A stretch of 64,000 bases of DNA from contig NZ_AP025158.1 of NCBI RefSeq assembly GCF_019974155.1, positions 434,001 through 498,000 of the forward strand. Reading direction: 5' to 3'. A program made the translations under genes and the position numbers. Source of the DNA: Thermus thermophilus (GTDB lineage: Bacteria; Deinococcota; Deinococci; Deinococcales; Thermaceae). Below, piece after piece: positions 25,105 through 56,849 of the stretch; position 1 is the first letter of the stretch; the number at the start of each line of letters is the position of its first letter. Below the pieces are notes generated by a model. The model was not told the DNA's origin. It did not search any database and saw nothing but the letters and a program-made list of their open reading frames with translations.

Positions 25105-25473
25105 TTAGGCCTGGGGCCAGAGCGCCCGCAGCTCCTTGGGCAGGAGGCCCAGAATGCCCTCCAGCTCCCCTTGGGAGATCTCCCGGGAAAGGACCTTGAA
25201 GACGGCCTGGGTGGCGGCCTCTGGGTCCACGGCGGGGCCGGAAGGGGTTTTGAGCTCCTCGGCCACGTGGGCCAGGAAGGCCTCCTTGTGCCGCTCCTTC
25301 AGGGGGTTGCCCGTGGGGGTCCAGCCCTCGTAGTAGAGGCCTCGGATGAGCATGGGGAGCTGGGCGGCGAGCTGGGTTACCTCCTCCACGGTGAGCCGGT
25401 CGCGCAGGGCGTGCAGCACCGCCCTCAGGGCCAGGTAGGCCTTGTGGCGGTCTTCGGTGCCAAGCTTCTCCAT
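25105..25473 (-). CDS. DUF2267 protein
   Basis: 122 aa, all-helical. HKAYLALRAVLHALRDRLTVEEVTQLAAQLP and ILGLLPKELRALWP are the DUF2267 (COG5502) pattern. Function unknown; the family often sits near stress proteins. It lies 18 bp downstream of a decayed dodecin gene on the same strand. Confidence 0.85.
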   Translation of the reverse strand: MEKLGTEDRHKAYLALRAVLHALRDRLTVEEVTQLAAQLPMLIRGLYYEGWTPTGNPLKERHKEAFLAHVAEELKTPSGPAVDPEAATQAVFKVLSREISQGELEGILGLLPKELRALWPQA

Positions 25474-25491
25474 GATCGCCGCTAAGTCTGC

Positions 25492-25662
25492 CTACTCTTT
25501 CAAGCGGACCCCCACCTCCAGGACCACCTGGTACTCCTTCACCTCAAACCAGTCCAGGTGGCACAGGGTCTTTCGCGCCCGCGCCAAGGCGGCTTGGATG
25601 GCGGCCTCGAGGCCCTCCCCGCCCGTCCCCACGAGCCCCACCTTCTTGTAGACCTTGCCCGT
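25492..25662 (-). pseudogene. Dodecin remnant: start codon lost and internal deletion
   Basis: The frame encodes GKVYKKVGLVGTGGEGLEAA and continues with the dodecin core KTLCHLDWFEVKE, then jumps straight to YQVVLEVGVRLKE. Dodecins (about 68-70 aa flavin-storage dodecamers) have an ExRG strand and loop between these blocks. Here about 12 codons are missing, exactly where VKE (GTGAAGGAG) would be repeated in the HB8 protein as I recall it. The codon where Met is expected reads ACG (25662-25660), and a TAG lies a few codons upstream. Not translatable as a normal dodecin. Confidence 0.75.
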
Positions 25663-25671: not shown

Positions 25672-27318
25672 CTACCGCTTCGTCGCCACTTCCTTTTGCA
25701 GCTCCCGCTTGAGGATCTTCCCCACGCTGGACTTGGGGAGGCTTTCGCGGAATTGGACGATGCGGGGGACCTTGTAGGCGGCGAGGTTTTGGCGGCAGAA
25801 GGCCTCTATGTCCTTTTCCGTGACCTTGCCCCGGTACTCGGGTTTGAGGACGAGGAAGGCGGCCACGGTCTCCCCGCGGTAGGGGTCTGGGACGCCCACC
25901 ACGGCGGCTTCCTGGACGGCGGGGTGCTGGTAGAGGACTTCTTCTACTTCGCGGGGGTAGATGTTGTAGCCGCCGGCGATGATCATGTCTTTTTTGCGGT
26001 CTACGATGTAGAAGTAGCCGTCTTGGTCCATTTTGGCGAGGTCGCCGGTGAGGAGCCAGCCGTCTTTGAGGGCCTTTTGCGTCTCCTCGGGGCGGTTCCA
26101 GTAGCCTTTCATGACGTTGGGGCCTTTTATGGCGAGTTCGCCCACCTCGCCTGGGGGGAGTTCCTTGCCCTCCTCGTCCACCACCTTGGCCTCCACGCCG
26201 GGGAAGGGGAGGCCCACGCTCCCCAGGCGCCTTTCGCCGTAAAGGGGGTTGCAGTGGGTCACGGGGCTCGCCTCCGTGAGGCCGTAGCCCTCCACCAGCT
26301 TGGCCCCGGTGAGCCTCTCAAAGCGCTCCGCCACCTCCAAAGGCAAAGGGGCGGAGCCGGAGATGCAGGCCCGGACGCTCTTGAGGTTCCGCCCCTCTAT
26401 GCCGGGGAAGTTGTTGAAGGCCACGTAAAGGGTGGGGACGCCGGGGAAGAGGGTGACCCGGTGTTTTTCAATGGCCTCCACGATGGCCTTGATCTCGGGC
26501 CTGGGGAGGAGGACGAGCTTCGCCCCGCCCAGGAGGGCCAGGTTCATGGCCACGGTCATCCCGTAGACGTGGAAGAAGGGGATGGCCCCGAGGACCACCT
26601 CCTCCCCCTCCCTGAAGTCGGGGATCCAGGCCCGCACTTGGAGGGCGTTGGCGGAGAGGTTCCTGTGGGTGAGCATGGCCCCCTTGGAAAGGCCCGTGGT
26701 GCCCCCGGTGTACTGGAGGAGGGCGAGGTCGTCCAGGTCCAGGGGGACGGGGCGGGGCGTTCCGGGCCTGAGGAAGGCCCGCCAAGGGATGCCCTCGAGG
26801 GCCTTGGGGGCTTCCCCTTTCCGCCTGAGAAGGAGGGGGTAGAGGAAGTTCTTGGGGAAGGGGAGGTAGTCCCGGATCCCCGTGCGCACCACCCTCTCCA
26901 CGGGCACCTCCCCCTTCACCTCCAGGTAGCGGGGGAGGAGCTGGTCCAGGATCACCAGGAACCGGGCCCCGGCGTCCCTGAGCTGGTGGCGAAGCTCCCG
27001 TGGGGTGTACATGGGGTTGGTGTTCACCCCCACGCCCCCGGCGAGGAGGGTGCCGTAGAAGGCGATGACGAACTGGGGGGTGTTGGGGAGCATGAGGGCC
27101 ACCCGGTCCCCGGGCTTAAGCCCCGCCTCCTGTAGGCCCTTGGCGAAGGCCTCCACCTCGCGCCAGAGGGCCGCGTAGGTGAGCCTTCGCCCGAGGAACT
27201 CCAGGGCCACCTTCTTGGGGAAGCGGCGGGCCGTTTCCGCCAGGGCCTCGGGAAGGAGCCGGGGCACGGGGGCCTCCTTGGGGACCCCGGGATCGTAGTG
27301 GGCGTACCAGGGCTTCAT
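25672..27318 (-). CDS. fadD: Long-chain acyl-CoA synthetase (AMP-forming)
   Basis: 548 aa, ANL superfamily. P-loop YTGGTTGLSKGAMLTHRN (about residue 195), LVEGYGLTEASP, WLLTGDLAKMD, hinge DRKKDMIIAGGYNIYPREVE and the C-terminal catalytic Lys in SSVGKILKREL. Activates fatty acids to acyl-CoA. GGAGGT lies 6 nt before the ATG; promoter listed separately. Codons in about 25,740-26,150 (C-terminal domain) use AAA, GAA, CAA and GTA far more than the rest of the gene. Confidence 0.95.
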   Translation of the reverse strand: MKPWYAHYDPGVPKEAPVPRLLPEALAETARRFPKKVALEFLGRRLTYAALWREVEAFAKGLQEAGLKPGDRVALMLPNTPQFVIAFYGTLLAGGVGVNTNPMYTPRELRHQLRDAGARFLVILDQLLPRYLEVKGEVPVERVVRTGIRDYLPFPKNFLYPLLLRRKGEAPKALEGIPWRAFLRPGTPRPVPLDLDDLALLQYTGGTTGLSKGAMLTHRNLSANALQVRAWIPDFREGEEVVLGAIPFFHVYGMTVAMNLALLGGAKLVLLPRPEIKAIVEAIEKHRVTLFPGVPTLYVAFNNFPGIEGRNLKSVRACISGSAPLPLEVAERFERLTGAKLVEGYGLTEASPVTHCNPLYGERRLGSVGLPFPGVEAKVVDEEGKELPPGEVGELAIKGPNVMKGYWNRPEETQKALKDGWLLTGDLAKMDQDGYFYIVDRKKDMIIAGGYNIYPREVEEVLYQHPAVQEAAVVGVPDPYRGETVAAFLVLKPEYRGKVTEKDIEAFCRQNLAAYKVPRIVQFRESLPKSSVGKILKRELQKEVATKR

Positions 27319-31346: not shown

Positions 31347-32065
31347 GGGCGCTTGCCTCCACCCCCCGCCCCCTCCTCTACCTCCACCGTGGCGGGGGCG
31401 GCTTCTTTGACCTCCTCCTCGCCCAGGTGACCGCGGCCCGCCTGCCCCTCTTCCTCCACCCCGTGGCCATGGAGGAGGGGTGGGAGGCCTTCCTCCCCTG
31501 CCTCAGAGGGCTCGGCTTCGCTGGGGCGGTCCTGGAGGAGGCCGTTTCCGTGCCCGAGGGGGTCCGCCTCGAGGCCGAGGCCGAAAAGGCCAGGCGGGTG
31601 GACCTCCTCGTCCCCACGGGCGGGGGGCTTCTCGGCCAGTACACGGAAGGCGTGGCCCTGGAGCGGCTCCTCGCCCAGCGCTTCCCCGGGGCCCGGGCCT
31701 TGTGGCTTGGGCCCCTCCGCTTTGAGCTCGCCCCCTTCCTCCGGGGCCTCGGCGAGGTCCACGTGGCCGCCCCAAGCTACGCCGAGGGGGACGCCTTCCT
31801 CGCCCGCCTCCCCGCCCCCCTCCGGGGCCGGGTGGCCCTCCGCCCCGAGGAGGTGCGGGCCTTGGTCCTCCGGGTGGACCTCCTCCTCCTGAACACCCCT
31901 CGCCCGCCTTTGGACCTGGCCCAGCCCTACCACGCCGCCTTGGCCTTCGCCCCCGGGGCCCAGGCCGTGGCCGAGCGGGTCCAGCTCTTCCTCGGGCCGG
32001 AGGACCTTTGGAGCGGGCGGGTCTGGGCCGTCCTCGAGGGCCTGGGGCACACCCCCTTGGGCTAA
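31343..32065 (+). CDS. Unknown protein, possibly a degenerate shikimate dehydrogenase-like fold
   Basis: 240 aa. It begins at an ATGA overlap with uvrD. The order of segments recalls AroE: a start LYLHRGGGGFFDLLLAQ, LRGLGFAGAVLEEAVSVP (GfrGfNVTiP position), then KARRVDLLVPTGGGLLGQYT (position of GAVNTi...GxNTD). A Rossmann-like half ends in LLLLNTPRPPLD where AroE has INATPxGM. Catalytic Lys and the NADP loop are not evident. I cannot assign a function. It converges on thiN with a 4-bp overlap of stops. Confidence 0.55.
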   Translation: MRALASTPRPLLYLHRGGGGFFDLLLAQVTAARLPLFLHPVAMEEGWEAFLPCLRGLGFAGAVLEEAVSVPEGVRLEAEAEKARRVDLLVPTGGGLLGQYTEGVALERLLAQRFPGARALWLGPLRFELAPFLRGLGEVHVAAPSYAEGDAFLARLPAPLRGRVALRPEEVRALVLRVDLLLLNTPRPPLDLAQPYHAALAFAPGAQAVAERVQLFLGPEDLWSGRVWAVLEGLGHTPLG

Positions 32066-32673
32066 AACAGGTAGAGGAGGGCCCGGCCCGCCTCCACCCG
32101 CACCCGGATGGGCCCCAGGGCCTGGTTTTCCAGGGTGAGGGTGGTGGCCTTGAGGGGGGTGGGGGGAAGGTCCCACCGCGCCCCCTCCACCCCCAGGGCG
32201 GCCTCGGGGAAGGGGAGGAGGCTGAAGGGGGTTCCGGGCTCCAGGGAAAAGGCGTGGAGGCCCGGAAGGAGGGGGAAGGCCCGGGCGAGCCCGTCCGTGA
32301 GCTCCACCCGCACCCCCCTTTCCAGGAGGAGGAAGGCGAGCTCCAGGTGGGCCAGGGTGTGGTCCAGCCGCCCGCCCAAAGCCCCCAGGAGGAGGGCCTC
32401 CTCCGCCCCAAGCTCCAGGGCCTTCCGGAGGAGGGCCTCCCCGTCCGTGAGGTCCTTCTCCCGGGGCAGGACCTCCTTGGGCGCGGAAAGGGCTTCCTGG
32501 AGCCAGGGGGGGCTTGAGTCAAAGTCCCCAAGCCATAGCTCCGGGGAAAGCCCCAAGGCGAGGGCGTGCCGCCCGCCGGAGTCCGCCGCCAGGAGGCGGT
32601 AGCCCTTAAGCCTTTCCTTAAGGGCCTCCGTGGCCAGGAGGGGGCCGCCCAAGAGGAGGGCGAAGCGCCTCAT
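32062..32673 (-). CDS. thiN: Thiamine pyrophosphokinase
   Basis: 203 aa. N-terminal catalytic domain with AADSGGRHALALGL, LGDFDSSP, EKDLTDGEALL and GGRLDHTLAHL, then the beta-sandwich thiamine-binding domain. Converts thiamine and ATP to thiamine diphosphate and AMP. The ATG overlaps the stop of the ABC ATPase gene (ATGA), which suggests that transporter imports thiamine or a precursor. Confidence 0.92.
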   Translation of the reverse strand: MRRFALLLGGPLLATEALKERLKGYRLLAADSGGRHALALGLSPELWLGDFDSSPPWLQEALSAPKEVLPREKDLTDGEALLRKALELGAEEALLLGALGGRLDHTLAHLELAFLLLERGVRVELTDGLARAFPLLPGLHAFSLEPGTPFSLLPFPEAALGVEGARWDLPPTPLKATTLTLENQALGPIRVRVEAGRALLYLF

Positions 32674-33620
32674 CCCTCCAAGGGTACCGCCTGGGCGGGG
32701 TCCAGGCGGAGGGCTATGGGGGCGCCCTCTTCCGGGCCCTCGGGGGCCTCGAGGTAGAGCCTAACCCCCCCCACCCGCACCCAAAGCCCCACCCGGGGCC
32801 CGAAGAAGAGCCGCTCCTCCACCACCCCCTCCAGGCCTCCTCCAAGGGCGAGGGCCTTTGGGGGGAGGAGGTGGGCCTTTGGGGGAAGGCCTAGGGCCTG
32901 GCTTTCCCCGGGGGAGAGGAGGTTCTTGTGCCCCAGGAAGCGGGCGGCCCATAGGTCCTTGGGGCGGGCGTAGACCTCCTCGGGCCGGCCCACCTGGACG
33001 AGCCGCCCCTCGCGCAGAAGGGCCACCCGGTGGGCGAGGAGGAAGGCCTCCCCCTGGTCGTGGGTCACGAGGAGGGCGGTGACCCCCTCTTCCTTTAGCG
33101 TCCGGCGCAGGAAGAAGAGGAGCTCTTCCCGAAGCCTCAGGTCCAGGGCCCCTAAGGGCTCGTCCAGGAGGAGGAGCCTGGGCCTAGGGGCCAAGGCCCG
33201 GGCCAGGGCCACCCGTTGCTGCTCCCCGCCCGAAAGCTCGTGGGGGCGCTTCCGGGCGTGGGGGGTGAGCTCCATGCGCTTAAGGAGCTCCCGCACCCGG
33301 GCCTCCCTCGCCTCCCTTGGCCAGCGGGCCTCCAAAAGGCCAAAGGCCACGTTTTCCGCCACGGTGAGGTGGGGGAAGAGGGCGTAGTCCTGGAAGAGAA
33401 AGCCCACCTTCCGCCTTTCCGGGGGAAGGGGGGTGAGGTCCTCCCCGAGGAAGCGCACGAAGCCCCCATCGGGCCTAAGGAGCCCGGCGATGAGCCTGAG
33501 CAGGGTGCTCTTCCCGCTTCCCGAAGGCCCGAGGAGGGCCAGGGTCTCCCCCTCGGCCACGGAAAGCTCCACGGAGAGGCGGAACCCGGGGAAGGCCTTT
33601 TCCAAGTAGAGCTCCAGCAC
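32670..33620 (-). CDS. ABC importer ATP-binding protein with TOBE-like tail (thiamine uptake candidate)
   Basis: 316 aa from GTG 33620. Walker [11 protein letters not shown]-loop FLFQDYALFPHLTVAEN, signature LSGGEQQRVALARAL, Walker B LLLLDEPLGALD, then VTHDQGEAFLLAHRVA; the last 90 residues form a TOBE-type regulatory domain as in FbpC/ThiQ/PotA. No permease lies alongside. The thiN overlap makes thiamine the first guess, not proven. TTTAAT lies 6 nt before the GTG, so the upstream open frame is not the start. Confidence 0.82.
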   Translation of the reverse strand: MLELYLEKAFPGFRLSVELSVAEGETLALLGPSGSGKSTLLRLIAGLLRPDGGFVRFLGEDLTPLPPERRKVGFLFQDYALFPHLTVAENVAFGLLEARWPREAREARVRELLKRMELTPHARKRPHELSGGEQQRVALARALAPRPRLLLLDEPLGALDLRLREELLFFLRRTLKEEGVTALLVTHDQGEAFLLAHRVALLREGRLVQVGRPEEVYARPKDLWAARFLGHKNLLSPGESQALGLPPKAHLLPPKALALGGGLEGVVEERLFFGPRVGLWVRVGGVRLYLEAPEGPEEGAPIALRLDPAQAVPLEG

Positions 33621-34237: not shown

Positions 34238-34322
34238 AGGTAGGCGGCCGGGGCCCTTGAACCCCCGTGGGGGATGTGGTAAGGTACAAATGTCCTTGTG
34301 GGGTACCCTGGCGGTGTACCGT

Positions 34323-34751
34323 ATGCGGAAGATGTACACACTTCTCCTCCCGGCCCTCCTGCTTTGGGCCTGGGCCCTCCCCGACTTCGGCCGCTGGTAT
34401 CCCTACCCGGAGGCCCTCGCCCTCGCCCAGGCCCACGGGCGGATGGTGATGGTCTACTTCCACAGCGAGCACTGCCCCTACTGCCAGCAGATGAACACCT
34501 TCGTCCTCTCCGACCCTGGGGTGAGCCGCCTCCTGGAGGCCCGCTTTGTGGTGGCCTCGGTGAGCGTGGACACCCCCGAGGGCCAGGAGCTCGCCCGGCG
34601 CTTCCGGGTGCCGGGCACCCCGACCTTCGTCTTCCTCGTCCCCAAGGCGGGGGCGTGGGAAGAGGTGGGCCGGCTCTTTGGCAGCCGGCCCCGGGCGGAG
34701 TTCCTCAAGGAGCTTCGCCAGATGTGTGCCAAGGGAGGTGCGTGTGAATAG
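34323..34751 (+). CDS. Periplasmic thioredoxin of the sox cluster (SoxW-like)
   Basis: 142 aa. Signal peptide ([20 protein letters not shown]), then a thioredoxin fold with active site [11 protein letters not shown] and the cis-Pro loop VPGTPTFVF. In other Sox clusters SoxW reduces SoxY or its partners. ATG 34323 or 34332 both fit; the frame is open upstream but not coding-like. It overlaps the start of soxY by 8 bp. Confidence 0.82.
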
Positions 34752-35196
34752 GCGAGCGTTTCTGAAGGCGACCGGCGCGGCCCTTGGGGCCGTGGCCCTC
34801 TCGGGGCTTCCCGCAAGGGCCCAGGGCCTCGAGGGCGAGGACCTGGAGAACCTGGAGAAGGCGCTCAAGCAGGTCTTCGGCAAAGGCTTTAAGGACCTTA
34901 CCCCCTCGGACGCGGTGAAGCTCAACATGCCGGCCATTGCCGAAAGCGGGGCCAACGTGCCTGCCGAGGTGGAGGTGGCCCTGCCCAAGGGGCAGGTGAA
35001 GGCCATCCACCTCTTCGCCGACAAGAACCCCACCCCGCACATCTTCGCCTTCATGCCCATGGAGGCGGAGCCCTACTACGCCACCCGGGTCCGCTTGGCG
35101 GAGACCACGGCCGTCCGGGCGGTGGTGGAGACCCAGGACGGGAAGCTCCTTCTGGCTTCGGCGAGCACCCGCGTCACCGTGGGGGGCTGCGGTTAA
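34744..35196 (+). CDS. soxY: Sulfur-carrier protein SoxY
   Basis: 150 aa. Twin-arginine signal ([20 protein letters not shown]), then the SoxY fold ending in TVGGCG. The Cys two residues from the end is the swinging arm that carries sulfur substrates. GTG 34744 chosen: GGGAGG is 5 nt upstream. Partner SoxZ follows by 12 bp. Confidence 0.92.
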   Translation: MNRRAFLKATGAALGAVALSGLPARAQGLEGEDLENLEKALKQVFGKGFKDLTPSDAVKLNMPAIAESGANVPAEVEVALPKGQVKAIHLFADKNPTPHIFAFMPMEAEPYYATRVRLAETTAVRAVVETQDGKLLLASASTRVTVGGCG

Positions 35197-35208
35197 GGGA
35201 GGTGCGGC

Positions 35209-35535
35209 ATGCCTTTTAGGACCATCGCGCGCCTAAACCCCGCCAAGCCCAAGGCGGGCGAGGAGTTCCGGCTTCAGGTGGTGGCCCAGCATCCCAACGA
35301 GCCCGGCACCCGCCGGGACGCCGAGGGGAAGCTGATCCCCGCCAAGTACATCAACCTGGTGGAGGTCTACTTTGAGGGGAAAAAGGTGGCGGAGGCCCGG
35401 CCCGGGCCTTCCACCAGCGCCAACCCCCTCTACGCCTTTAAGTTCAAGGCGGAGAAGGCGGGGACCTTCACCCTCAAGCTCAAGGACACGGACGGGGACA
35501 CGGGCGAGGCTTCGGTCAAGCTGGAGCTGGCCTAA
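35209..35535 (+). CDS. soxZ: SoxZ
   Basis: 108 aa immunoglobulin-like beta-sandwich. IARLNPAKPKAGEEFRLQVV, the loop RRDAEGKLIPAKYINLVEVY, and LKDTDGDTGEASVKLEL. No own signal peptide, so it is exported bound to SoxY through the Tat system. Forms the SoxYZ carrier. Confidence 0.95.
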   Translation: MPFRTIARLNPAKPKAGEEFRLQVVAQHPNEPGTRRDAEGKLIPAKYINLVEVYFEGKKVAEARPGPSTSANPLYAFKFKAEKAGTFTLKLKDTDGDTGEASVKLELA

Positions 35536-35585
35536 AGGGGGTGCCCGGGGACCCCCGGGCACCTTATGGAAGGGAGGTTTTGGTT

Positions 35586-36365
35586 ATGCGCCAGGGCCTG
35601 GGTTTATTGCTCGCCGCCCTCCTTCTAGGGGTGGCCTTGGCCCAGGGCGACGTGGACCCTAGGGAGGAGGCCAAGCGGCAGAAGCAACTCCTCTTGGAGA
35701 CTGCGGGCATCCTCCCCACGGAGCTCATCGTGGCCCAAGGGGAGGAGCTCTTTAACCGCAAGGGCCCGAGCGGCAAGACCATGGCCGAGTGCGACTTCGG
35801 CCTGGGAAAGGGGGTCCTGGAGGGGGCGGCGGCCAGGCTTCCCCGCTACTTCCTGGACACGAACCGGGTTGAGGACCTGGACAGCCGCATCGTCACCTGC
35901 ATGACCCGGGTCCAGGGCTTCAAGCCCGAAGAGGTGAAGCGCTCCGAGGTGGTGGCCGTCGCCTTCTACATCGCCAGCAAGTCCACGGGGCACAGGATCC
36001 AAGTCCGCCTGCTTTTCCCCGAAGAGCGGGAGCTTTACGCCCTCGGGGAAAAGCTCTTTTATGCCCGGAGCGGGGCCCGGGACGTGGGGTGCGCCACCTG
36101 CCACGTGACCTACGTGGGCCGGCGCGCCGGGGTCCTGCCCTACGCCGACGTCCTGGGCAAGGACAAGTCCTGGACCCACTGGCCCGCCTACCGCTACTCC
36201 AACGACCAGGCCTGGACCATGCAGGACCGGATCCGGGCCTGCTACGGCAACATCGCCCACCCCCCGCCCGCCCTTTACTCCCGGCCCATCCTGGCCCTGG
36301 AGCTCTTCCTGGCCTACAACAACAACGGGGCCGTGGTGGAGGAGTGGCCCGCCTTTGTGCGGTGA
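35586..36365 (+). CDS. soxA: SoxA, first copy (cytochrome c)
   Basis: 259 aa. Sec signal (MRQGLGLLLAALLLGVALAQ). One heme site CATCH (Cys169-Cys172-His173). The other heme motif of diheme SoxA is lost: Cys69 and Cys105 remain and probably form a disulfide. Cys219 in IRACYG is the active-site Cys/heme ligand that links sulfur to SoxY. ATG 35586, 8 nt after GGGAGG. Pairs with SoxX downstream. Confidence 0.93.
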   Translation: MRQGLGLLLAALLLGVALAQGDVDPREEAKRQKQLLLETAGILPTELIVAQGEELFNRKGPSGKTMAECDFGLGKGVLEGAAARLPRYFLDTNRVEDLDSRIVTCMTRVQGFKPEEVKRSEVVAVAFYIASKSTGHRIQVRLLFPEERELYALGEKLFYARSGARDVGCATCHVTYVGRRAGVLPYADVLGKDKSWTHWPAYRYSNDQAWTMQDRIRACYGNIAHPPPALYSRPILALELFLAYNNNGAVVEEWPAFVR

Positions 36366-36374
36366 GGAGGGAGC

Positions 36375-36947
36375 ATGCGGAAGGTTCTCGTAGCCCTTTT
36401 TGCCTTGGCCCTGGCCTTCGCCCTGGCCCAGCGCTACTTCACCGAGGAGGAGCTGAAGCGGATTCAGGACGGGGGTAAGGCCTACGCCGAGGTCTTCGTC
36501 AACCAGCGCCCCGACCAGGCCCTCTGCTCCATCCACCGGAACCGCCTCCCCGCCGACCTCCTTCCCAAGTTCCTGGAAGAGCAGCGGGCCCTGATCAAGT
36601 ACCCCGCTTCCGGGAAGCTTATGGGGGACTGGAGGAAGGGCGGGGCCATCTTCAACAACCTGCAGAAGGCCAACTGCTTCTCCTGCCACTATGGCTCCCC
36701 CGAGCACCTGGGGGGCGACGTGGGCCCGAGCCTGGAGAAGTACGGCCTCAATCGGGGCCAGTCGGAGGCGGTGCAGCGGTACACCTACGAGGTGATCTAC
36801 AACGCCTGGGCCTACTTCCCCTGCACCGTCATGTACCGCTTCGGGGCCCAGGGCCTCCTCACCCCCGAGGAGATCGCCGACGTGGTGGCCTACCTCCTGG
36901 ACCCGGAAAGCGACTTCAACACCAAGCCGGCGGTGGGGTCTAGATGA
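36375..36947 (+). CDS. soxX: SoxX, first copy (cytochrome c)
   Basis: 190 aa. Signal peptide to about residue 18. Heme site CFSCH (Cys101-Cys104-His105) and axial Met in CTVMYRFG. The conserved KYPASGKLMGDW before the heme is the SoxX signature. Together with SoxA it forms the c-type complex that attaches thiosulfate to SoxY. Overlaps soxB by 4 bp. Confidence 0.93.
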   Translation: MRKVLVALFALALAFALAQRYFTEEELKRIQDGGKAYAEVFVNQRPDQALCSIHRNRLPADLLPKFLEEQRALIKYPASGKLMGDWRKGGAIFNNLQKANCFSCHYGSPEHLGGDVGPSLEKYGLNRGQSEAVQRYTYEVIYNAWAYFPCTVMYRFGAQGLLTPEEIADVVAYLLDPESDFNTKPAVGSR

Positions 36948-38665
36948 ACCGCAGGGAGCTCCTTCAGCTTCTTTCCGCCCTGGCGGTCCTGGGGCCTAGG
37001 GGTTGGGCCCGGGCCCTCGAGGACCCCAGGTCCCTTTACGACCTCCCCCCTTACGGGGACGCCACCCTCCTCTTCTTCTCCGACCTCCATGCCCAAGCCT
37101 TCCCCCACTACTTCATGGAGCCCCCGAACCTCATCGCCCCCAAGCCCCTCATGGGCCGCCCGGGTTACCTCACGGGAGAGGCCATCCTCCGCTACTACGG
37201 CGTGGAGCGGGGCACGCCCCTCGCCTACCTCCTCTCCCACGTGGACTTCGTGGAGCTCGCCCGCACCTTCGGGCCCATAGGGGGGATGGGCGCCCTCACC
37301 GCCCTCATCCGCGACCAGAAGGCCCGGGTGGAGGCGGAAGGGGGTAAGGCCTTGGTCCTGGACGGCGGGGACACCTGGACCAACTCCGGGCTTTCCCTCC
37401 TCACCCGGGGCGAGGCCCCGGTGCGGTGGCAGAACCTCGTGGGGGTGGACCACATGGTCTCCCACTGGGAGTGGACCCTGGGGCGGGAGCGCGTGGAGGA
37501 GCTCCTTGGGCTCTTCCAGGGAGAGTTCCTCTCCTACAACATCGTGGACGAGCTCTTCGGCGACCCCCTCTTCCCCGCCTACCGCATCCACCGGGTGGGG
37601 CCCTACGCCCTGGCGGTGGTGGGGGCGAGCTACCCCTACGTCAAGGTCTCCCACCCCGAGGCCTTTACGGAGGGCCTCTCCTTCGCCCTGGACGAGAGGC
37701 GGCTCCAGGAGGCGGTGGACCAGGCCCGCGCCGAGGGGGCGAACGCCGTGGTCCTCCTCTCCCACAACGGGATGCAGCTGGACGCCGCCTTGGCGGGGCG
37801 GATCCAGGGGATTGACCTCATCCTCTCCGGCCACACCCACGACCTCACCCCCAGGCCCTGGCGGGTGGGGAAGACCTGGATCGTGGCGGGGAGCGCCGCC
37901 GGGAAGGCCCTGATGCGGGTGGACCTGAAGCTCTGGAAGGGGGGGATCGCCAACCTCCGGGTGCGGGTGCTCCCCGTTCTCGCGGAGCACCTGCCCAAGG
38001 CCGAGGACGTGGAGGCCTTCCTCAAGGCCCAGCTCGCCCCCCATCAGGACCACCTCTTCACCCCCTTGGCCCTTTCCGAGACCCTCCTCTACAAGCGGGA
38101 CACCCTCTACTCCACCTGGGACCAGCTTGTAGGGGAGGCGGTGAGGGCCATTTACCCTGAGGTGGAGGTGGTCTTCAGCCCGGCGGTGCGCTGGGGGACC
38201 ACCATCCTGCCGGGGCAGGCCATCACCTGGGACCACCTCTACGCCTACACCGGCTTCACCTACCCCGAGCTCTACCTCTTCTACCTCCGGGGAGAGCAGA
38301 TCAAGGCGGTCCTGGAGGACATCGCCAGCAACGTCTTCACCCCGGACCCCTTCTACCAGCAGGGGGGGGACGTGAGCCGGGTCTTCGGCCTCCGCTACGT
38401 CCTGGACCCCGATGCCCCCACCGGGGCAAGGATCCGGGAGGTGGAGGTGGGGGGCAGGCCCCTGGACCCGAACCGCCGCTATTTGGTCGCCGCCTACGGG
38501 GGGAGGCTCCAGCGGGTGGGCGAGGCCAAGCCGGGGTACGAACCCAAGCCCATCTACGAGGTCCTCGCCGAGTACTTGAGGTCCGTGGGCCGGGTGCGCG
38601 TCCGGCCCGAGCCCAACGTGAAGGTCATTGGGCGCAGTTACCGCTTGCCGGAGGTGTGGGAATGA
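36944..38665 (+). CDS. soxB: SoxB thiosulfohydrolase
   Basis: 573 aa. Twin-Arg signal (NRRELLQLLSALAVLG). 5'-nucleotidase-like metal sites: FFSDLHAQ, LDGGDTWTNSG, LLSHNGMQ and LSGHTHDLTP. Uses two manganese ions to release sulfate from SoxY-bound sulfonate. T. thermophilus SoxB has a known structure of this fold. Confidence 0.96.
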   Translation: MNRRELLQLLSALAVLGPRGWARALEDPRSLYDLPPYGDATLLFFSDLHAQAFPHYFMEPPNLIAPKPLMGRPGYLTGEAILRYYGVERGTPLAYLLSHVDFVELARTFGPIGGMGALTALIRDQKARVEAEGGKALVLDGGDTWTNSGLSLLTRGEAPVRWQNLVGVDHMVSHWEWTLGRERVEELLGLFQGEFLSYNIVDELFGDPLFPAYRIHRVGPYALAVVGASYPYVKVSHPEAFTEGLSFALDERRLQEAVDQARAEGANAVVLLSHNGMQLDAALAGRIQGIDLILSGHTHDLTPRPWRVGKTWIVAGSAAGKALMRVDLKLWKGGIANLRVRVLPVLAEHLPKAEDVEAFLKAQLAPHQDHLFTPLALSETLLYKRDTLYSTWDQLVGEAVRAIYPEVEVVFSPAVRWGTTILPGQAITWDHLYAYTGFTYPELYLFYLRGEQIKAVLEDIASNVFTPDPFYQQGGDVSRVFGLRYVLDPDAPTGARIREVEVGGRPLDPNRRYLVAAYGGRLQRVGEAKPGYEPKPIYEVLAEYLRSVGRVRVRPEPNVKVIGRSYRLPEVWE

Positions 38666-39219
38666 AGGGAAAAGCGGTTTTGGCTGTAGGGGTTTTGCTC
38701 CTGGGCCTGGGGCTTTCCCAGGGGCCTTTTCGGGCCCGCCTCGAGGCCGCCATCCAGACGGGGGGCGAGGCCTTCGCCCAGGTGATGCTCTCCCAGGACA
38801 AGGCCCAGGCCCTCTGTACGCAGTACCGCGACAGGCTTCCCCCTGAACTTGTCCCGGCTTTCCTCGCGGAGCAAAGGGCCCTCATCAAGTACCCCGCCTC
38901 GGGGAAGCTCATGGGCGACTGGAAGAACGGGGAGAAGGTCTTCACCGACCCCAAGCGGGGCAACTGCTACGCCTGCCACCAAGGGGACCCCCGGGAGGTC
39001 GCCTACGGGACCATGGGGCCAAGCCTCACGGGCTACGGCGAGCGCGGCCTTTCGGAGGCGGTGGTGCGCTACACCTACGAGAAGATCTACAACGCCTGGG
39101 CCTTCGTCCCCTGTTCCCTCATGTACCGGGGCGGGGTGCACGGCCTCTTCACCCCCGAGGAGACCGCTGACCTGGTGGCCTTCCTCCTGGACCCCGAATC
39201 CCCCATCAACCGGAGGTGA
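38662..39219 (+). CDS. soxX: SoxX, second copy (cytochrome c)
   Basis: 185 aa. Signal peptide, KYPASGKLMGDWKNG before heme site CYACH, and axial Met in CSLMYRGG. Clearly a paralogue of the first SoxX (shared EQRALIKYPASGKLMGDW). ATG overlaps the soxB stop (ATGA). Followed 3 bp on by the second soxA, so the order X-A is reversed relative to the first pair. Confidence 0.9.
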   Translation: MKGKAVLAVGVLLLGLGLSQGPFRARLEAAIQTGGEAFAQVMLSQDKAQALCTQYRDRLPPELVPAFLAEQRALIKYPASGKLMGDWKNGEKVFTDPKRGNCYACHQGDPREVAYGTMGPSLTGYGERGLSEAVVRYTYEKIYNAWAFVPCSLMYRGGVHGLFTPEETADLVAFLLDPESPINRR

Positions 39220-39222
39220 GCC

Positions 39223-40029
39223 GTGAGCGTGCGGAAGAAGCGTCTGATCCTGCTGGCCGGGGTGGCCCTGGGGGCGCTTGGGGGGCTTGTGGCCTACACG
39301 CAACAAAACAAGCCCCTGGATCCCTTTGAGGAGGCCATGCGCCAGCGGGAGATGTACCTGGAGACCTTCGGCGTCCTCCCCGGCGACCTCTTCGTGGAGG
39401 AGGGGAAGGAGCTCTTTTACCGGAAAGGGCCCTCGGGCAAGACCCTGGAGGAGTGCGACTTCGGCCTGGGCAAGGGGGTTTTGGAAGGGGTCTACGCCGT
39501 CTTGCCCAAGTACTTCCCCGACACGGGCCGGGTGGAGGACCTGGAGACCAGGGTCTACACCTGCATGCAACGGGTCCAGGGCTTCAAGCCCGAGGAGATC
39601 CAGCGGGACGAGGTGCGGGCCATCACCACCTTCATCGCCTCCAAGTCCAGCAAGGCCAAGATCCAGGTGGTGCCCAAGCACCCCCAGGAGATCGCCATGT
39701 ACAACCTGGGGCGGGAGCTCTGGTACACCCGCGCCGGGCCCCGGGACATGAGCTGCGCCGTCTGCCACGAGCAGTACGCGGGCCAAAGGGTGCGGCTTTC
39801 CCCGGTGCGGAGCCCCAGGCAGGGCCTCGGCAACGAGTGGCCCGCCTACCGCTTTGAGGAGGACAAGCTCTACACCATGCAGGACCGGATTGACTTCTGC
39901 TACGAGTCCATCGGCATCCCCAAACCCGAGTTCTACTCGGAGGCCCACATCGCCCTCACCACCTACATCCTGGCCGAGGCCACCAAGGCGGGGCAGGCCT
40001 TCCTGGAGCTCCCCTTCTTCACGAGGTAG
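39223..40029 (+). CDS. soxA: SoxA, second copy (cytochrome c, membrane-anchored)
   Basis: 268 aa, GTG start. The N-terminus (RKKRLILLAGVALGALGGLVAY) looks like an uncleaved anchor, unlike the first copy. Shares RKGPSGKTLEECDFGLGKG and the Cys in YTCMQRVQGFKPEE. Heme site CAVCH; late Cys in RIDFCYES in the active-site place. Divergent enough from copy one to suggest a different role or partner. Confidence 0.9.
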   Translation: MSVRKKRLILLAGVALGALGGLVAYTQQNKPLDPFEEAMRQREMYLETFGVLPGDLFVEEGKELFYRKGPSGKTLEECDFGLGKGVLEGVYAVLPKYFPDTGRVEDLETRVYTCMQRVQGFKPEEIQRDEVRAITTFIASKSSKAKIQVVPKHPQEIAMYNLGRELWYTRAGPRDMSCAVCHEQYAGQRVRLSPVRSPRQGLGNEWPAYRFEEDKLYTMQDRIDFCYESIGIPKPEFYSEAHIALTTYILAEATKAGQAFLELPFFTR

Positions 40030-40031
40030 CC

Positions 40032-40466
40032 ATGCGCCGGCGGGACCTCTTGGCCCTCCTCCCCCTCCTCGCCCTGGCCCGGGGGCAGGGCGGGGCGGGG
40101 GAGGACTGGACCGAGGCCTTCGGCCGCTTCCTCAAGGCGGTGCCCCCGGCGGGCTACCTCGTCTACCCCACGGAGGCCTACGACCTCCTCCTCTTTGAGC
40201 CCTTCGTCCTGGACGTGCGCACCGCCGAGGAGAGGACGCGGGGTTACATTCCGGGCTCGGTGCACATCTACGCCGGGGAGGTCCCGGACCGCCTGGGGGA
40301 GCTTCCCCGGGATAAGGAGGCCCTGATCCTCGTCTACTGCAACTCGGGGAGCGTCTCCGCGGTGGTGGCGGCGTTTCTGCAGGCCAAAGGCTACAGGAAC
40401 GCCAAGAACATCGCCCACGGTTTCAAGGGCTGGCTGGACGCCGGCCTTCCGGTGGAGGGAGCATGA
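40032..40466 (+). CDS. Exported rhodanese-domain protein
   Basis: 144 aa. Signal (MRRRDLLALLPLLALARGQG; two Arg, possibly Tat). Rhodanese loop LVYCNSGSVSA with catalytic Cys, preceded by FVLDVRTAEERTRGYIPGSVHI. May move sulfane sulfur between SoxYZ and other carriers. Overlaps the DUF302 gene by 4 bp. Confidence 0.85.
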   Translation: MRRRDLLALLPLLALARGQGGAGEDWTEAFGRFLKAVPPAGYLVYPTEAYDLLLFEPFVLDVRTAEERTRGYIPGSVHIYAGEVPDRLGELPRDKEALILVYCNSGSVSAVVAAFLQAKGYRNAKNIAHGFKGWLDAGLPVEGA

Positions 40467-41317
40467 AAAGGATCCTGGTGGCCGTTCTCGCGGCGCTGGG
40501 CCTGGCCTTGGCCCAGGCCCTGGTGGTGGAGGTGGAGGGTTCCTTGGAGGACGTGGAGGCGAGGGCCCTTAAGGCCCTCGAGGCGGCGGGCCTGCAGGTG
40601 GACCGGGTCTTGAACCTGGGCGAGCAGGTGCGCCAGGTGACGGGCCCGGGCTTCCCCGAGTACCGGCTCATCGTCCTGAAGCCGGAGAAGGGGAGTGTGG
40701 CCGCCGTGAGCAAGAACCCCATGGCGGCCATCGTCCTCCCGCCCACCGTCTTCCTGACGGGGGAGGGGGAGCGCTACCTGGTGGGCACCTTTGACCCCCA
40801 CCTCCTTTTCGGGATGCTCGGGGTCTACGAGGGGGCGGTGCGGGACCTCGGCCTCAGGCTCCAGGCGGCCTTGGGGAGGCTCGGCCTGGTGCGCCGCGTG
40901 GCCCCCGCCGCGATGCCGGACCCGCAAAGCGGCCTGATGCCCGCCCTCCTCTACCGGGTCCCCCAGGCCAGCGTGGAGGAGGTGGTCCTCCTGGTGGAGA
41001 CGGAGCTCACCTCGAGGGGCCTGAACCTCCTGCCCCACGTGCGGGTGGGCCCGGTCACGGTGATCATGCCCTGCAAGAGCGAGTGGGCCCGCATCATGTT
41101 CCTCACCCAGCCCGCCGGGGGGTTCGCCGCCCCTTGCCGCTTCTTCGCCATGTCCATGGGGGAGGACGTCCTGGTGGGGGCCATTGAACCCATGCTCATG
41201 ACCATCATGCCCGGCGTCCCGGGCTCGGAGGCGGTGGGGATGCTCCAGGAGGCCCGGCAGGTGATGGGCGAGGTGCTGGAGTCCGTGGGCGGGAAGCCTT
41301 ACCGCCCTGGGCAATAA
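40463..41317 (+). CDS. Exported DUF302 protein (two DUF302 modules)
   Basis: 284 aa. Signal (MKRILVAVLAALGLALAQA). Two DUF302-like modules: EYRLIVLKPEKGSVAAVSKN ... FLTGEGERYLVGTFDP and PVTVIMPCKSEWARIMFLTQ. DUF302 function is unknown; it recurs beside rhodanese and sulfur-oxidation genes. Two Cys (PCKSEW, APCRFF) may handle sulfur (inference). Confidence 0.75.
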   Translation: MKRILVAVLAALGLALAQALVVEVEGSLEDVEARALKALEAAGLQVDRVLNLGEQVRQVTGPGFPEYRLIVLKPEKGSVAAVSKNPMAAIVLPPTVFLTGEGERYLVGTFDPHLLFGMLGVYEGAVRDLGLRLQAALGRLGLVRRVAPAAMPDPQSGLMPALLYRVPQASVEEVVLLVETELTSRGLNLLPHVRVGPVTVIMPCKSEWARIMFLTQPAGGFAAPCRFFAMSMGEDVLVGAIEPMLMTIMPGVPGSEAVGMLQEARQVMGEVLESVGGKPYRPGQ

Positions 41318-41332
41318 GTAAGGAGGTGAGGT

Positions 41333-42620
41333 ATGGCGAAGGTGAAGCGCAGGGACCTGTTGAAGGCGGGGGCCGCCTTGGCGGCGGCCGGCACCCTGGG
41401 CAAGGGCTTCGCCCAGGAGTTCTACGCGAGCCCTCCCACCCTCCTCCCCCGCTCCCGGGCCCCCCGGGTGGTGGTGGTGGGGGGCGGCTGGGGCGGGACC
41501 ACGGTGGCCCGCAAGGTCAAGCAGCAGAACCCCGGGGTGGAGGTGGTGCTCGTGGAGCAGAAGCCCATCTTCATGTCCTGCCCCATGTCCAACCTCTTCC
41601 TCGCCGGGGTGAAGCCTTTGGAGTGGCTCGTCTTTGACTACACCAACGTGGTCAAGGACGGGGTCATCTTCGTCCAGGAGAAGGTCCTGGAGATCAACCG
41701 GGAGCGCCGCCTGGTGCGCACCACGGGGGGGTACCTGGCCTACGACTTCCTGGTCCTCGCCCCCGGCATTGACTACATGTACGAGGCCATCCCCGGCTAC
41801 GAGGAGGCCAAGCCCTTCCTGCCCGTGGGCTTCAAGCCCTTTGAGCACGTCGCCCTCCGCCGCATGCTGGACCAGTTTGACGAGACCGGGGGTGAGCTCG
41901 TCATGTACATTCCCCCGCCCCCCCTACCGCTGCCCCCCTGGGCCTTACGAGCGGGCGGCCATGCTGGCCTGGCGGCTCAAGACCAAGGGGGTGAAGGGGA
42001 AGGTCATCGTCCTGGACGCTAACCCCCAGCCCCTCTCCAAGGCCCCCGGGTTCCTCGCCGCCTACAACGAGCTTTACAAGGACTACCTGGAGTATGTCCC
42101 CAACACCCGCATCACCGGCCTGGACTACGAGAAGAAGGTGGTGAAGACCGAGCTCGGGGATGTTCCCTTCACCCTGGCCAACGTCATCCCCCCCATGAAG
42201 GCGGCGGAGATCGTGCGCCAGGCGGGGCTTGGGGAGCGGTGGGCCAACGTCCGCATCCCCTACTTCCTCTCCGAGGCCGACGACCGGATCTATCTGGTCG
42301 GGGACATCACCGGGAACACCCCCTACCCCAAAAGCGGCATGATCGCCTACGTCTCCGGCACCATCGTGGCCCGCCACCTCACGGAGAGGCTCAAGGGGAA
42401 GCCCCTCGCCGAGATCCCGCCGGAGCTTCCCACCAACATCTGCTACTCCTTCGTGGACTCCGAGGAGGCCATCTGGGTCTCCGCCAACTACTCCTGGGAC
42501 GAGGCGGAGAAGCGCATCCAGGCGCAAAGCCAGGTGGACAACCAGCGCTCCAAGGCGAACGGCGAGGCGGCCATCGGCTGGGCCTTGGGCCTCTGGAACG
42601 ACATGTTCGGCCCGGCCTAA
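41333..42620 (+). CDS. soxF: SoxF-type flavoprotein (flavocytochrome c sulfide dehydrogenase), frameshifted
   Basis: About 428 aa once corrected. Tat-like KRRDLLKAGAALAAAGTL signal, FAD loop VVVVGGGWGGTTVARKV, redox Cys in IFMSCPMSNLFL, then APGIDYMYEAIPGYEE. At 41918-41924 a run of seven C shifts the frame. Six C would restore PPPPYRCPPGPYERAAMLAW, the family motif. The second half continues in frame to 42620 with LVGDITGNTPYPKSG and CYSFVDSEEAIWV. Either an assembly slip, a recent inactivation, or phase variation. AAGGAGGTGAGGT precedes the ATG. Confidence 0.85.
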
Positions 42621-42630
42621 GGGCTTTTTA

Positions 42631-42654
42631 CCCCCGCCCCTTTAGGGGCGGGGG
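42631..42654 (+). terminator. Intrinsic terminator after soxF
   Basis: Perfect 10-bp stem CCCCCGCCCC-TTTA-GGGGCGGGGG, followed by GTTCCCTTG. Separates the sox operon from soxCD. Confidence 0.75.
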
Positions 42655-42668
42655 GTTCCCTTGCGGGA

Positions 42669-42686
42669 ATAGAATACGCTAGGAGG
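42669..42686 (+). promoter_or_regulatory. Promoter and ribosome site of soxC
   Basis: TAGAAT (42669-42674) as -10 and TAGGAGG (42680-42686) before ATG 42691. Shows soxCD can be expressed independently. Confidence 0.5.
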
Positions 42687-42690
42687 GTAT

Positions 42691-43983
42691 ATGGACCGAA
42701 GGAGGTTTTTCCGGATTCTGGGCGCAGGGGGGCTTTTGGGCCTCTTCAAGGCCAAGGCCCAGGGGCTTCCCTGGACGGAGGAGACCTTCGCCCCCACCAA
42801 GACCCTGGGGGCGCCCCTCGCCGAATACGGGGAGCGGAGCCCCTTTGAGGCCGGGGTGGTGCGCTACATCTCCCCCAACCTCCGCACCCGCCACTCGGGG
42901 GCGAGCTTCGCCCCCCTGGAGCGGCTGGAGGGGGTCATCACCCCGAACGGCCTCCACTTTGAGCGCCACCACGCCGGGGCCCCGCAGGTGGACCCCAAGC
43001 ACTACCGCCTGGTGATCCACGGGATGGTGGAGCGGCCTTTGGTCCTCACCCTGGAGGACCTGAAGCGCTTCCCCTCCGTGACCCGCACCTACTTCATTGA
43101 GTGCGCCGGGAACGGGCAAAACGGCTACCGCAACCCCCCGGACCCCGAGCTCACCGCCACCCGCAGCCGCGGCCTCGCCTCCAACGCCAGCTGGACCGGG
43201 GTGCCCCTGGCCCTCCTCCTCAAGGAGGCGGGGGTGAAGCCTGGGGCCAGGTGGCTCATCCCCGAGGGGATGGACGCCGCCATGTACACCCGTTCCCTCC
43301 CTCTGGAGAAGGCCATGGAGGACGTCCTCGTGGCCTACGCGCAAAACGGGGAAGCGCTTCGGCCTGAGCAGGGCTATCCCGTGCGTTTGGTGGTGCCGGG
43401 GTGGGAGGGGAGCATCCAGGTGAAGTGGCTGAGGCGCATCCTGGTCACGGACCTGCCCGCCATGGCCAAGGACGAGACCAGCGAATACACGGACGTCATG
43501 GCGGACGGGCGGGTCCTCGCCTTCACTTGGGTCATGGAGCCCCAGTCCATCATCACCTACCCCTCCGGGGGCCAGCGGGTCCAGCCCGGCTTCCACGAGA
43601 TCCGGGGCCTGGCCTGGAGCGGCTTCGGCCGCATCGCCAAGGTGGAGGTTTCCTTTGACGAGGGCAAGACCTGGCGGCAGGCCACCCTCGAGCCTCCCGT
43701 GGAGCCCTACGCCTTCGTCCGCTTTAAGCTCCCCTGGTACTGGGACGGCAAGGAGGTGGTCCTCTGGAGCCGGGCCTGGGACGAGAAGGGCAACACCCAG
43801 CCCACCCGGGAGGAGTTCTTCCGCCGCTGGAGCCGGAACAACCGCTACCACTACAACGCCATCCAGGCTTGGCGGATCCTGCCGGACGGCCGGGTGGTGA
43901 ACGGCGACCGCCCCCTGGGCCAAGGGGCCTTCGCCCCGGTCGGCCCCGTGGGGGGGTGCGATGGGGAGGTGTTGGATGTTTAG
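42691..43983 (+). CDS. soxC: Sulfane dehydrogenase molybdopterin subunit SoxC
   Basis: 430 aa. Tat signal (DRRRFFRILGAGGLLGL). Sulfite oxidase fold: the molybdenum ligand Cys138 in YFIECAGNGQNG, and C-terminal dimerisation beta-domain (YPSGGQRVQPGFHEIRGLAW, VSFDEGKTWRQA). Oxidises the sulfane sulfur on SoxY, giving six electrons to SoxD. Its end overlaps soxD by 8 bp. Confidence 0.94.
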   Translation: MDRRRFFRILGAGGLLGLFKAKAQGLPWTEETFAPTKTLGAPLAEYGERSPFEAGVVRYISPNLRTRHSGASFAPLERLEGVITPNGLHFERHHAGAPQVDPKHYRLVIHGMVERPLVLTLEDLKRFPSVTRTYFIECAGNGQNGYRNPPDPELTATRSRGLASNASWTGVPLALLLKEAGVKPGARWLIPEGMDAAMYTRSLPLEKAMEDVLVAYAQNGEALRPEQGYPVRLVVPGWEGSIQVKWLRRILVTDLPAMAKDETSEYTDVMADGRVLAFTWVMEPQSIITYPSGGQRVQPGFHEIRGLAWSGFGRIAKVEVSFDEGKTWRQATLEPPVEPYAFVRFKLPWYWDGKEVVLWSRAWDEKGNTQPTREEFFRRWSRNNRYHYNAIQAWRILPDGRVVNGDRPLGQGAFAPVGPVGGCDGEVLDV

Positions 43984-44533
43984 GCGCGCCCTCGCTTGGG
44001 GGGCCCTCCTCGCCGCCTTGGGCCTCGCCTTGGCCGCGCGTTACGGCCTGGGCACGCCCATCTCCGAGGAGCTCGCCCGCCAGTACGACCTTAGGCCCGT
44101 GGTTCTGCCCGACGGCCGCGGCCTTCCTCCCGGGGAGGGGAGGGTGGAGGAGGGCCAAAGGATCTACGCCCAGAAGTGCGCTTCCTGCCACGGGGAGAAC
44201 GGGGAGGGGTATCCCTTCAACCGCCTGGTCTCCGAGCCTTTCCCCATCACCCCGGACACGGAGCCCGTGGAGTACGCCATCGGCAACTACTGGCCCTACG
44301 CTACCACGCTCTTTGACTACATCCGCCGGGCCATGCCCTTCGGCCAGGCGGGGACGCTGACGGACGAGGAGGTCTACCACCTCGTGGCCTTCCTCCTCTA
44401 CATGAACGGGATCATTGACGCCGGCACCCCCGTGAACCAGAAGACCCTCTCCGAGATCCGGATGCCCGCCCGGGAGCTTCTGGAGCTGGACCCCGAGACC
44501 AAGCGCCGCTTCCCCTGGCTCACCCTGCCTTAG
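43976..44533 (+). CDS. soxD: SoxD-like monoheme cytochrome c
   Basis: 185 aa. Signal or anchor (MFRRALAWGALLAALGLALAARYG), heme site CASCHGENGEG and Met ligand in RRAMPFGQAG. Classical SoxD has two hemes; this has one, with the C-terminal half absent. Accepts SoxC electrons and passes them to c-552. Confidence 0.88.
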   Translation: MFRRALAWGALLAALGLALAARYGLGTPISEELARQYDLRPVVLPDGRGLPPGEGRVEEGQRIYAQKCASCHGENGEGYPFNRLVSEPFPITPDTEPVEYAIGNYWPYATTLFDYIRRAMPFGQAGTLTDEEVYHLVAFLLYMNGIIDAGTPVNQKTLSEIRMPARELLELDPETKRRFPWLTLP

Positions 44534-52149: not shown

Positions 52150-52164
52150 AGACAAAGCCAAGGT

Positions 52165-52185
52165 CCCGCCCCAAGCTTGGGCGGG
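52165..52185. terminator. Terminator hairpin after the Rieske gene
   Basis: CCCGCCC-CAAGCTT-GGGCGGG, 7-bp stem, 15 nt past the stop; no T tract. Confidence 0.5.
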
Positions 52186-52203
52186 GCCCTCAGGAGGGGC
52201 CCA

Positions 52204-52624
52204 TTAGTAGGGCTCGCCCTCCAGCATCTTCCGCTCCTGATCCACGGAGACCAGGGCCAGCTCAATGGGGTAGTGGGGCTCGTTCACCCCAGGGTGGGCT
52301 CCCGAGGGGATGAGGTTCACGTGGTTAATGCAGGTGATCCCCAGGGCCCTCAGGGTCTTCGTGCCGATGTCCACGTACTTCTGGCTCTCGTTACCGGGTT
52401 CCCCGCCCTTTCGTAGGCGAGGAAAGGGTCTTCAGGCAGGGTGCTCGGGTCCACGTAGAGGGTGCCGAGGCCGGAGATGAAGTTGGGGAGCGCCCCCTTC
52501 AGGGCCTCGCTCACGTTCACGTAGGGGGCCGAAGGGGGGCCTTCCGCACCTAGAGTATCTGGGCCAGGTCCAGGCCAAAGGCCACCGCCAAAGAGACCAT
52601 CACGAGCGCTTTCGCCTTCCTCAT
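52204..52624 (-). pseudogene. Decayed secreted protein gene beside the ECF sigma locus
   Basis: ATG 52624 begins a signal peptide (MRKAKALVMVSLAVAFGLDL). A TAG at 52552-52550 and a frame change interrupt it at once. A second frame gives GLGTLYVDPSTLPEDPFLAYER; another shift near 52,400 leads to GTKTLRALGITCINHVNLIP, then GAHPGVNEPHYPIELALVSV, with TAA at 52204. At least two lesions. The GHPGxxEPHY-type motif resembles small secreted proteins of the DUF5602/TTHB210 kind, which in HB8 are under a sigma-E/anti-sigma pair (from memory). Confidence 0.7.
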
Positions 52625-52654
52625 ATGTCTGCCTCTCTTAGGAGCCCTCTGGAG

Positions 52655-52735
52655 CTCCACCCTACCCTGCGGCCGGAGGGGGGTGGTGGATGAGGCCAAA
52701 CCGGACGGGCTTTCTGCCCGTATGGTAGGGTGGAG
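52655..52735. promoter_or_regulatory. Paired inverted repeats between the secreted-protein gene and the ECF sigma gene
   Basis: CTCCACCCTACC (52655-52666) and its exact complement GGTAGGGTGGAG (52724-52735), 57 nt apart. Each half lies in the same orientation just upstream of one of the two divergent genes, as a shared promoter element or operator would. Confidence 0.55.
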
Positions 52736-52739
52736 GCGG

Positions 52740-53303
52740 ATGGGCTTGCCCGCCGATTCCCTCTCCGACGAGGCCCTCCTCGCTTTGGTGGCCCGCGGGG
52801 ACGAGGAGGCCTTCCGCGCCCTTTTCCGACGCTACGCGGGAAGCTTTCTCGCCTTGGCGCGCAGGATGGGCCTGGATGGGGCGGGGGCCGAGGATGTGGT
52901 GCAGGAGGCGATGATAAGGGTCTGGCAGAAGGCCAAGGAGTTTGACCCCAGGCGCGGGAGCGCCCGGGCGTTCCTCCTCACCTTGGGGCACCACGCGGCG
53001 GTGGACGAGGTGCGCAGGCGAGCCGCGAGGCCCCTTCCCCTGGAGCCCGATCCCGAGAGGGATGAGGAGGCTTTTGACCTTCCGGGTCCCGGGCTGGACG
53101 AGGAGGGCCACTTGGACCGTACCCGCCTTGGCCGGGCACTGAAGGCCCTGTCTCCGGAGGAGCAGCGGGTGATTGAGGTCCTCTACTACCAGGGCTACAC
53201 CCACCGGGAGGCGGCAAGGCTTCTTGGTGTTCCCTTGGGAACCCTCAAAACCTGGGCCAGGAAGGCCCTCTTGAAGCTCAAGGAGGTGCTCCGTGAGCCC
53301 TGA
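52740..53303 (+). CDS. ECF-type RNA polymerase sigma factor
   Basis: 187 aa. Region 2: EEAFRALFRRYAGSFLALAR, AEDVVQEAMIRVWQKA, AFLLTLGHHAAVDEVRRR. Region 4: LSPEEQRVIEVLYYQGYTHR and EAARLLGVPLGTLKTWARKAL. Start ATG 52740 has GGAGG 4 nt upstream; ATG 52722 is in frame but falls in the repeat. Overlaps the anti-sigma gene by 11 bp. Probably the T. thermophilus sigma-E group. Confidence 0.92.
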   Translation: MGLPADSLSDEALLALVARGDEEAFRALFRRYAGSFLALARRMGLDGAGAEDVVQEAMIRVWQKAKEFDPRRGSARAFLLTLGHHAAVDEVRRRAARPLPLEPDPERDEEAFDLPGPGLDEEGHLDRTRLGRALKALSPEEQRVIEVLYYQGYTHREAARLLGVPLGTLKTWARKALLKLKEVLREP

Positions 53304-53910
53304 AGAGGTCCGGGAACTCCTCCCCCTTTACGCCTTGGGGGCCCTCACCCCCGAGGAGCGGGCCCGGGTGGAGGAGGCCCTAAAGCGCTACCCCGAGCTC
53401 TGGACCGAGGCCAAGGCCCTTCTGGAGACGGCGGCGGAGCTCGCCGCGGGCCTTCCTCAGGAACCTTTGCCCTCAGGGCTCGAGGAGCGGGTCCTCCGCC
53501 GCATCCGCCCAAGGCGCCTTTCCCTTCTCCCCCTCCTCGCCCGGGCAGCCGCGGTCCTGGCCTTCCTCCTCGTGGGCTACGGGGCCTACTTCGGCCTCTC
53601 CTGGACCTTGAGCCTAGGGGCGCCCGCCACCCGGGTCTACGCCCTGGTGGGCCCCCAAGGGGGGGTGGTGGGGCATGCGGTGGTGCGCCAGGACGGGCGG
53701 GCCCTGGTGGTCCTGGGGGCCCTGCCCCCCCAAGGGCGGGTTTACCAAGCCTGGGGATTGGGGAAGGGCGATCCTGTACCCTTGCCCACCTTTCGCCTCC
53801 CCCTTAAGGTGGTGCGCTTGCCCGAGGGGGCCCAGGCCCTGGCGGTTTCCCTCGAGCCCCCGGGGGGAAGCCAAAGGCCCACGGAGATCCTAGGCTTGCC
53901 CAAGCTCTAG
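53293..53910 (+). CDS. Membrane anti-sigma factor (RskA-like)
   Basis: 205 aa. N-terminal zinc-less anti-sigma domain (SPEEVRELLPLYALGALTPE, EERARVEEALKRYPEL), one membrane helix (about 80-100) and an external beta domain with GRVYQAWGLGKGDPVPLPTF, typical of RskA. Holds the ECF factor at the membrane. GTG start inside the sigma gene gives coupled synthesis. Its stop overlaps the decayed ferritin-like gene. Confidence 0.88.
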   Translation: MSPEEVRELLPLYALGALTPEERARVEEALKRYPELWTEAKALLETAAELAAGLPQEPLPSGLEERVLRRIRPRRLSLLPLLARAAAVLAFLLVGYGAYFGLSWTLSLGAPATRVYALVGPQGGVVGHAVVRQDGRALVVLGALPPQGRVYQAWGLGKGDPVPLPTFRLPLKVVRLPEGAQALAVSLEPPGGSQRPTEILGLPKL

Positions 53911-55332: not shown

Positions 55333-55452
55333 GAGCTCAGGGCGGAGAAGGGGGATGGGGCTTTGGAACACCTCGGGCAACCGGAACCTAAGGGTGGGCC
55401 TTCGGCCTAGGGCTTCCCGAAGGCGGCGCACGTGCTCTTCTTCCTGGGCTAA
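55333..55452 (-). pseudogene. Ferritin-like gene, middle fragment right of the insertion
   Basis: Minus strand reads LAQEEEHVRRLREALGRRPT and FRLPEVFQSPIPLLRPELS, which joins to the fragment at 53907-54174 and matches LAQEEAHVKALRDTLSALGV of the intact paralogue. Upstream of Leu (55452) no ferritin-like N-terminus is found, so this gene had lost its 5' end independently. 55453-55518 holds no gene I can support. Confidence 0.75.
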
Positions 55453-55546: not shown

Positions 55547-55549
55547 TAC

Positions 55550-56844: not shown

Positions 56845-56849
56845 TGGTT

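Follow-up and report, generated by a model that had tools for sequence, protein, structure and literature searches.

A dodecin gene with a lost start codon and an internal deletion in Thermus thermophilus TMY

The dodecin locus of Thermus thermophilus TMY is very probably a genuine pseudogene, produced by ordinary mutation and a repeat-mediated deletion. The locus was examined within the window, the whole 64,000-nucleotide stretch of DNA analyzed here, by comparison with intact orthologues at the same position in related genomes. The gene has lost its start codon and 36 bp of its interior, so that the two independent lesions claimed in the initial annotation are indeed present. That annotation overlooked a second deletion of 130 bp just downstream, which truncates the neighboring DUF2267 gene. 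The features of the locus are as follows.

25495 to 25662, minus strand: dodecin remnant of 56 codons, in frame, with no usable start (PF07311, PDB 2cz8, orthologue alignment)
25492 to 25494, minus strand: stop codon of the dodecin remnant
25660 to 25662, minus strand: ACG at the start position, ATG in 10 of 10 intact Thermus orthologues (orthologue sequences)
25534 to 25542, minus strand: lone GTGAAGGAG at the junction of the 36-bp deletion (alignment with T. parvatiensis, T. composti and G042)
25480 to 25481, minus strand: junction of the second, 130-bp deletion (alignment with G021, G014 and G042)
25105 to 25473, minus strand: body of the DUF2267 gene, truncated at its 5′ end, with a frame that opens at an internal Met (PF10025)
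25672 to 27318, minus strand: intact fadD-type acyl-CoA synthetase gene upstream of dodecin (PF00501 and PF13193)

The minus-strand translation of 25492–25662 has the form T-GKVYKKVGLVGTGGEGLEAAIQAALARARKTLCHLDWFEVKE-YQVVLEVGVRLKE-stop and reads in full TGKVYKKVGLVGTGGEGLEAAIQAALARARKTLCHLDWFEVKEYQVVLEVGVRLKE before the stop. It matched the Pfam Dodecin profile PF07311 over profile positions 1–47 of 64 with 51.6 bits (E = 1.2e-13), where the gathering cut-off is 22.5 bits, and its best solved structure was the T. thermophilus HB8 dodecin TTHA1431 (PDB 2cz8, E = 1.4e-23). The position of the start codon lies 9 nt past the fadD stop. The order fadD-dodecin-DUF2267 is the same in the relatives, where dodecin directly follows fadD, in most of them also at a distance of 9 nt and with no apparent promoter of its own. 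The relatives used in the alignments were T. parvatiensis (G021), T. composti (G014) and G042. A search of the whole TMY genome for another dodecin, as suggested initially, found no second copy at E ≤ 0.001. An origin through copy number or a plasmid was rejected, as the plasmid search returned only fadD-type matches.

The codon where Met is expected is ACG, as had been noted from the sequence, and a usable dodecin start codon is thus lacking. The next in-frame start-type codon is a GTG at codon 8 (25639–25641), the use of which would drop the first strand of the protein. The dodecin of Mycobacterium bovis BCG Moreau (BCG_M1530c) carries the identical T-to-C change from ATG to ACG, and yet the native protein is still detected and initiation at ACG has been suggested (PMC8044443). 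Therefore, loss of the start codon alone is no proof of a dead gene. The BCG gene is otherwise intact, however, whereas the TMY gene has also suffered an internal deletion and several amino acid replacements.

The internal deletion spans exactly 36 bp, or 12 codons, and corresponds to residues 44–55 (I44–E55) of the HB8 protein in the alignment with orthologues. Lost with it are the E-x-R-G strand and the turn preceding YQVV; as residues 44–55 are absent relative to all ten Thermus orthologues, the remnant does not encode a complete β-α-β-β chain of about 68 residues. When aligned with HB8, it forms two blocks that meet at VKE, which bears out the statement in the initial annotation that VKE stands on both sides in the HB8 protein. 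The intact Thermus orthologues have the arrangement GTGAAGGAG-(27 bases)-GTGAAGGAG or close variants of it, and T. parvatiensis, T. composti and G042 have two GTGAAGGAG 9-mers placed 36 bp apart, while TMY retains one. The deletion between short repeats is thus as had been described, and the exact junction together with the repeats supports slippage or short-homology recombination between the GTGAAGGAG copies as the probable mechanism, in keeping with the recombination envisaged originally.

The deletion preserves the reading frame, and no stop codon interrupts what remains of the gene, as though coding constraint had persisted to some degree. These features, together with the retention of W38 and the YQVV block and the suggested ACG initiation in BCG, would be expected if a shortened dodecin were still made, either with the ACG as its start codon or through translational coupling to fadD, and had kept some function. 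We consider this very unlikely. The loss of residues 44–55 removes R45 along with the strand and turn ahead of YQVV, which would leave the β-α-β-β fold of dodecins (PMC7414021) one strand short, and six more replacements have accumulated, several of them at the invariant positions E9, S14, R34 and F64.

The dodecin of HB8, known from several structures (PDB 2CZ8, 2UX9, 2V18, 2V21), is identical to the TMY remnant over most of residues 2–43 and 56–68. Alignment with this protein confirmed the lesions in TMY and showed the HB8 dodecin to be intact. Over the 56 positions in common, TMY differs by M1T, E9G, S14G, E15G, R34C, F64V and E67K, and E9, S14, R34 and F64 are invariant among the ten Thermus orthologues. 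In a four-sequence alignment, the codon changes unique to TMY were 6 nonsynonymous to 1 synonymous, compared with 3:8 in the three relatives (Fisher p = 0.05, with small numbers). The dN/dS of the TMY dodecin was 0.61 against G042 and 0.48 against T. parvatiensis, its nearest two relatives, compared with 0.05–0.09 among the relatives. Selection on the remnant is relaxed, as these small but concordant numbers indicate. The loss appears confined to TMY or its lineage, since HB8 keeps an intact protein, and calling it recent is right only on the scale of the species. It is not brand new, because the six replacements relative to HB8 indicate that decay of the remnant has gone on for some time within the species.

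The possibility that the lesions reflect errors in sequencing or assembly was considered, as an older PacBio-only assembly of TMY contained many frameshift errors (PMC8601142). The present assembly is a later hybrid of nanopore and short reads that was polished with Pilon (PMC8601142), which makes such an error unlikely. Its plasmid matches the older pTMY record with 100% identity. Moreover, errors of this kind are single-base indels; they would not produce deletions of 36 and 130 bp together with several transitions while preserving the reading frame. The majority of other genes in the window are undamaged, with dN/dS values of about 0.1–0.3 relative to T. parvatiensis, and the assembly is therefore not error-ridden. 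We regard an artifact as having next to no chance of being the explanation.

The 130 bp missing just 3′ of the dodecin remnant are present in T. parvatiensis, T. composti and G042, where they contain the promoter-like hexamers TTGACA and TACCCT, GGGAGGTGA, and the start and about 25 codons of DUF2267. TMY has therefore lost the promoter-like sequence, the ribosome site, the start codon and about 25 N-terminal codons of this gene, which encodes about 147 amino acids in the relatives. The remaining body still matched PF10025 over profile positions 9–122 with 124.7 bits. Relaxed selection was not seen in this body, with unique changes of 3:4 nonsynonymous to synonymous compared with 12:21 in the relatives (p = 1), and decay beyond the truncation was rejected on the same counts. 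The truncation may therefore have occurred later, or the shortened protein may have remained functional. A repeat origin of the 130-bp deletion was also rejected: G042 has GCTCAA at either end, but at a spacing of 126 rather than 130 bp, and the junction is not exactly explained by it. DUF2267 is independently damaged elsewhere in Thermus, by a 5′ deletion in G012 as in TMY, by loss of the 3′ half in G002, by an internal deletion with a change of frame in G017 and by a single TAG in G024; it is absent from five genomes. Some of these are drafts in which a contig ends close to the locus, and absence is less certain in them. Altogether it is broken or missing, by visibly different lesions, in 10 of 27 Thermus genomes.

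We propose the following course of events for the TMY locus, in which the order of the lesions is reconstructed from the HB8 protein and the DNA of sister species. A T-to-C transition in the TMY lineage would have turned ATG into ACG, and two GTGAAGGAG copies would have mediated, by slippage or short-homology recombination, the in-frame loss of 12 codons, with the ExRG strand and the turn that follows. The remainder, freed from selection, would then have gained its six further replacements relative to HB8. In a separate event, 130 bp just downstream would have been deleted, and with them the promoter and N-terminal part of DUF2267. A functional dodecin would not be expected from this locus, and the protein is presumably absent from TMY. 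The loss of flavin storage suggested in the initial annotation would be a predicted functional consequence. The HB8 dodecin reportedly binds CoA as well.

Other observations were made in the window. Two fadD paralogues lie about 30 kb from each other and are 100% identical along 487 bp of their 3′ part (25712–26198; G000:C1:429867–431501), against about 60–90% elsewhere. Across six Thermus genomes, codons 401–500 of the fadD copies are 98–100% identical within a genome and differ by about 6–13% between genomes, and, in agreement with this, the N-terminal and C-terminal parts yield conflicting trees. There is recurrent gene conversion in fadD, confined to its 3′ part. A segment of about 10 kb (34240–44241) is missing at the corresponding site of the T. 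parvatiensis chromosome; its ORFs, named by eye, resemble a sox (thiosulfate-oxidation) cluster with c-type cytochromes, a SoxB-like hydrolase and a SoxC-like molybdoprotein. For another stretch of about 7.7 kb (52153–59838), the syntenic region of T. parvatiensis gave no match. An apparent stop in the gene at 32065–32784 was rejected as a lesion, as the true start of that gene is likely to be further downstream.

Wide conservation of the family, assumed initially, does not hold within the genus. Dodecin is present in 10 of 26 other Thermus species genomes and absent from 16. In 6 of the 16 (G020, G009, G016, G011, G019 and G001), fadD and DUF2267 lie side by side, and nothing resembling dodecin intervenes. 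These genomes resemble TMY in having both neighbors and no working dodecin, but they hold no recognizable dodecin sequence there, whereas TMY is caught midway. When mapped on the tree of a single 691-residue gene, the pattern of presence amounts to about four changes, including that in TMY. Since dodecin is found in part of the order's other families, and since the fadD-dodecin-DUF2267 arrangement is also that of the deep-branching G003, repeated loss in Thermus is likelier than repeated gain.

Such losses could also stem from instability of the fadD-dodecin-DUF2267 tail across Thermus, perhaps through the fadD gene-conversion tract, rather than from a lost need for dodecin. The varied DUF2267 lesions in ten genomes and the exchange of sequence between fadD copies right next door are compatible with such a hot spot. 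However, no observation ties the gene conversion to the deletions, and the absence of dodecin is clustered in clades and therefore fits few old losses, so that a hot spot seems unlikely. It is likewise doubtful that the tail has been dismantled repeatedly and independently across Thermus. If it has, dodecin and DUF2267 would share a conditionally useful role, namely cofactor buffering beside fatty-acid activation, and would be lost jointly on a change of niche.

Ordinary decay of the dodecin gene in TMY, the reading we favor, leaves general knowledge of dodecins and of gene decay unchanged. The remnant nevertheless documents an intermediate stage in the loss of dodecin, in a species that supplies a structural reference for this protein, and it corrects the view that dodecin is fixed in Thermus. 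For comparisons, TMY would serve as a natural dodecin-minus strain.
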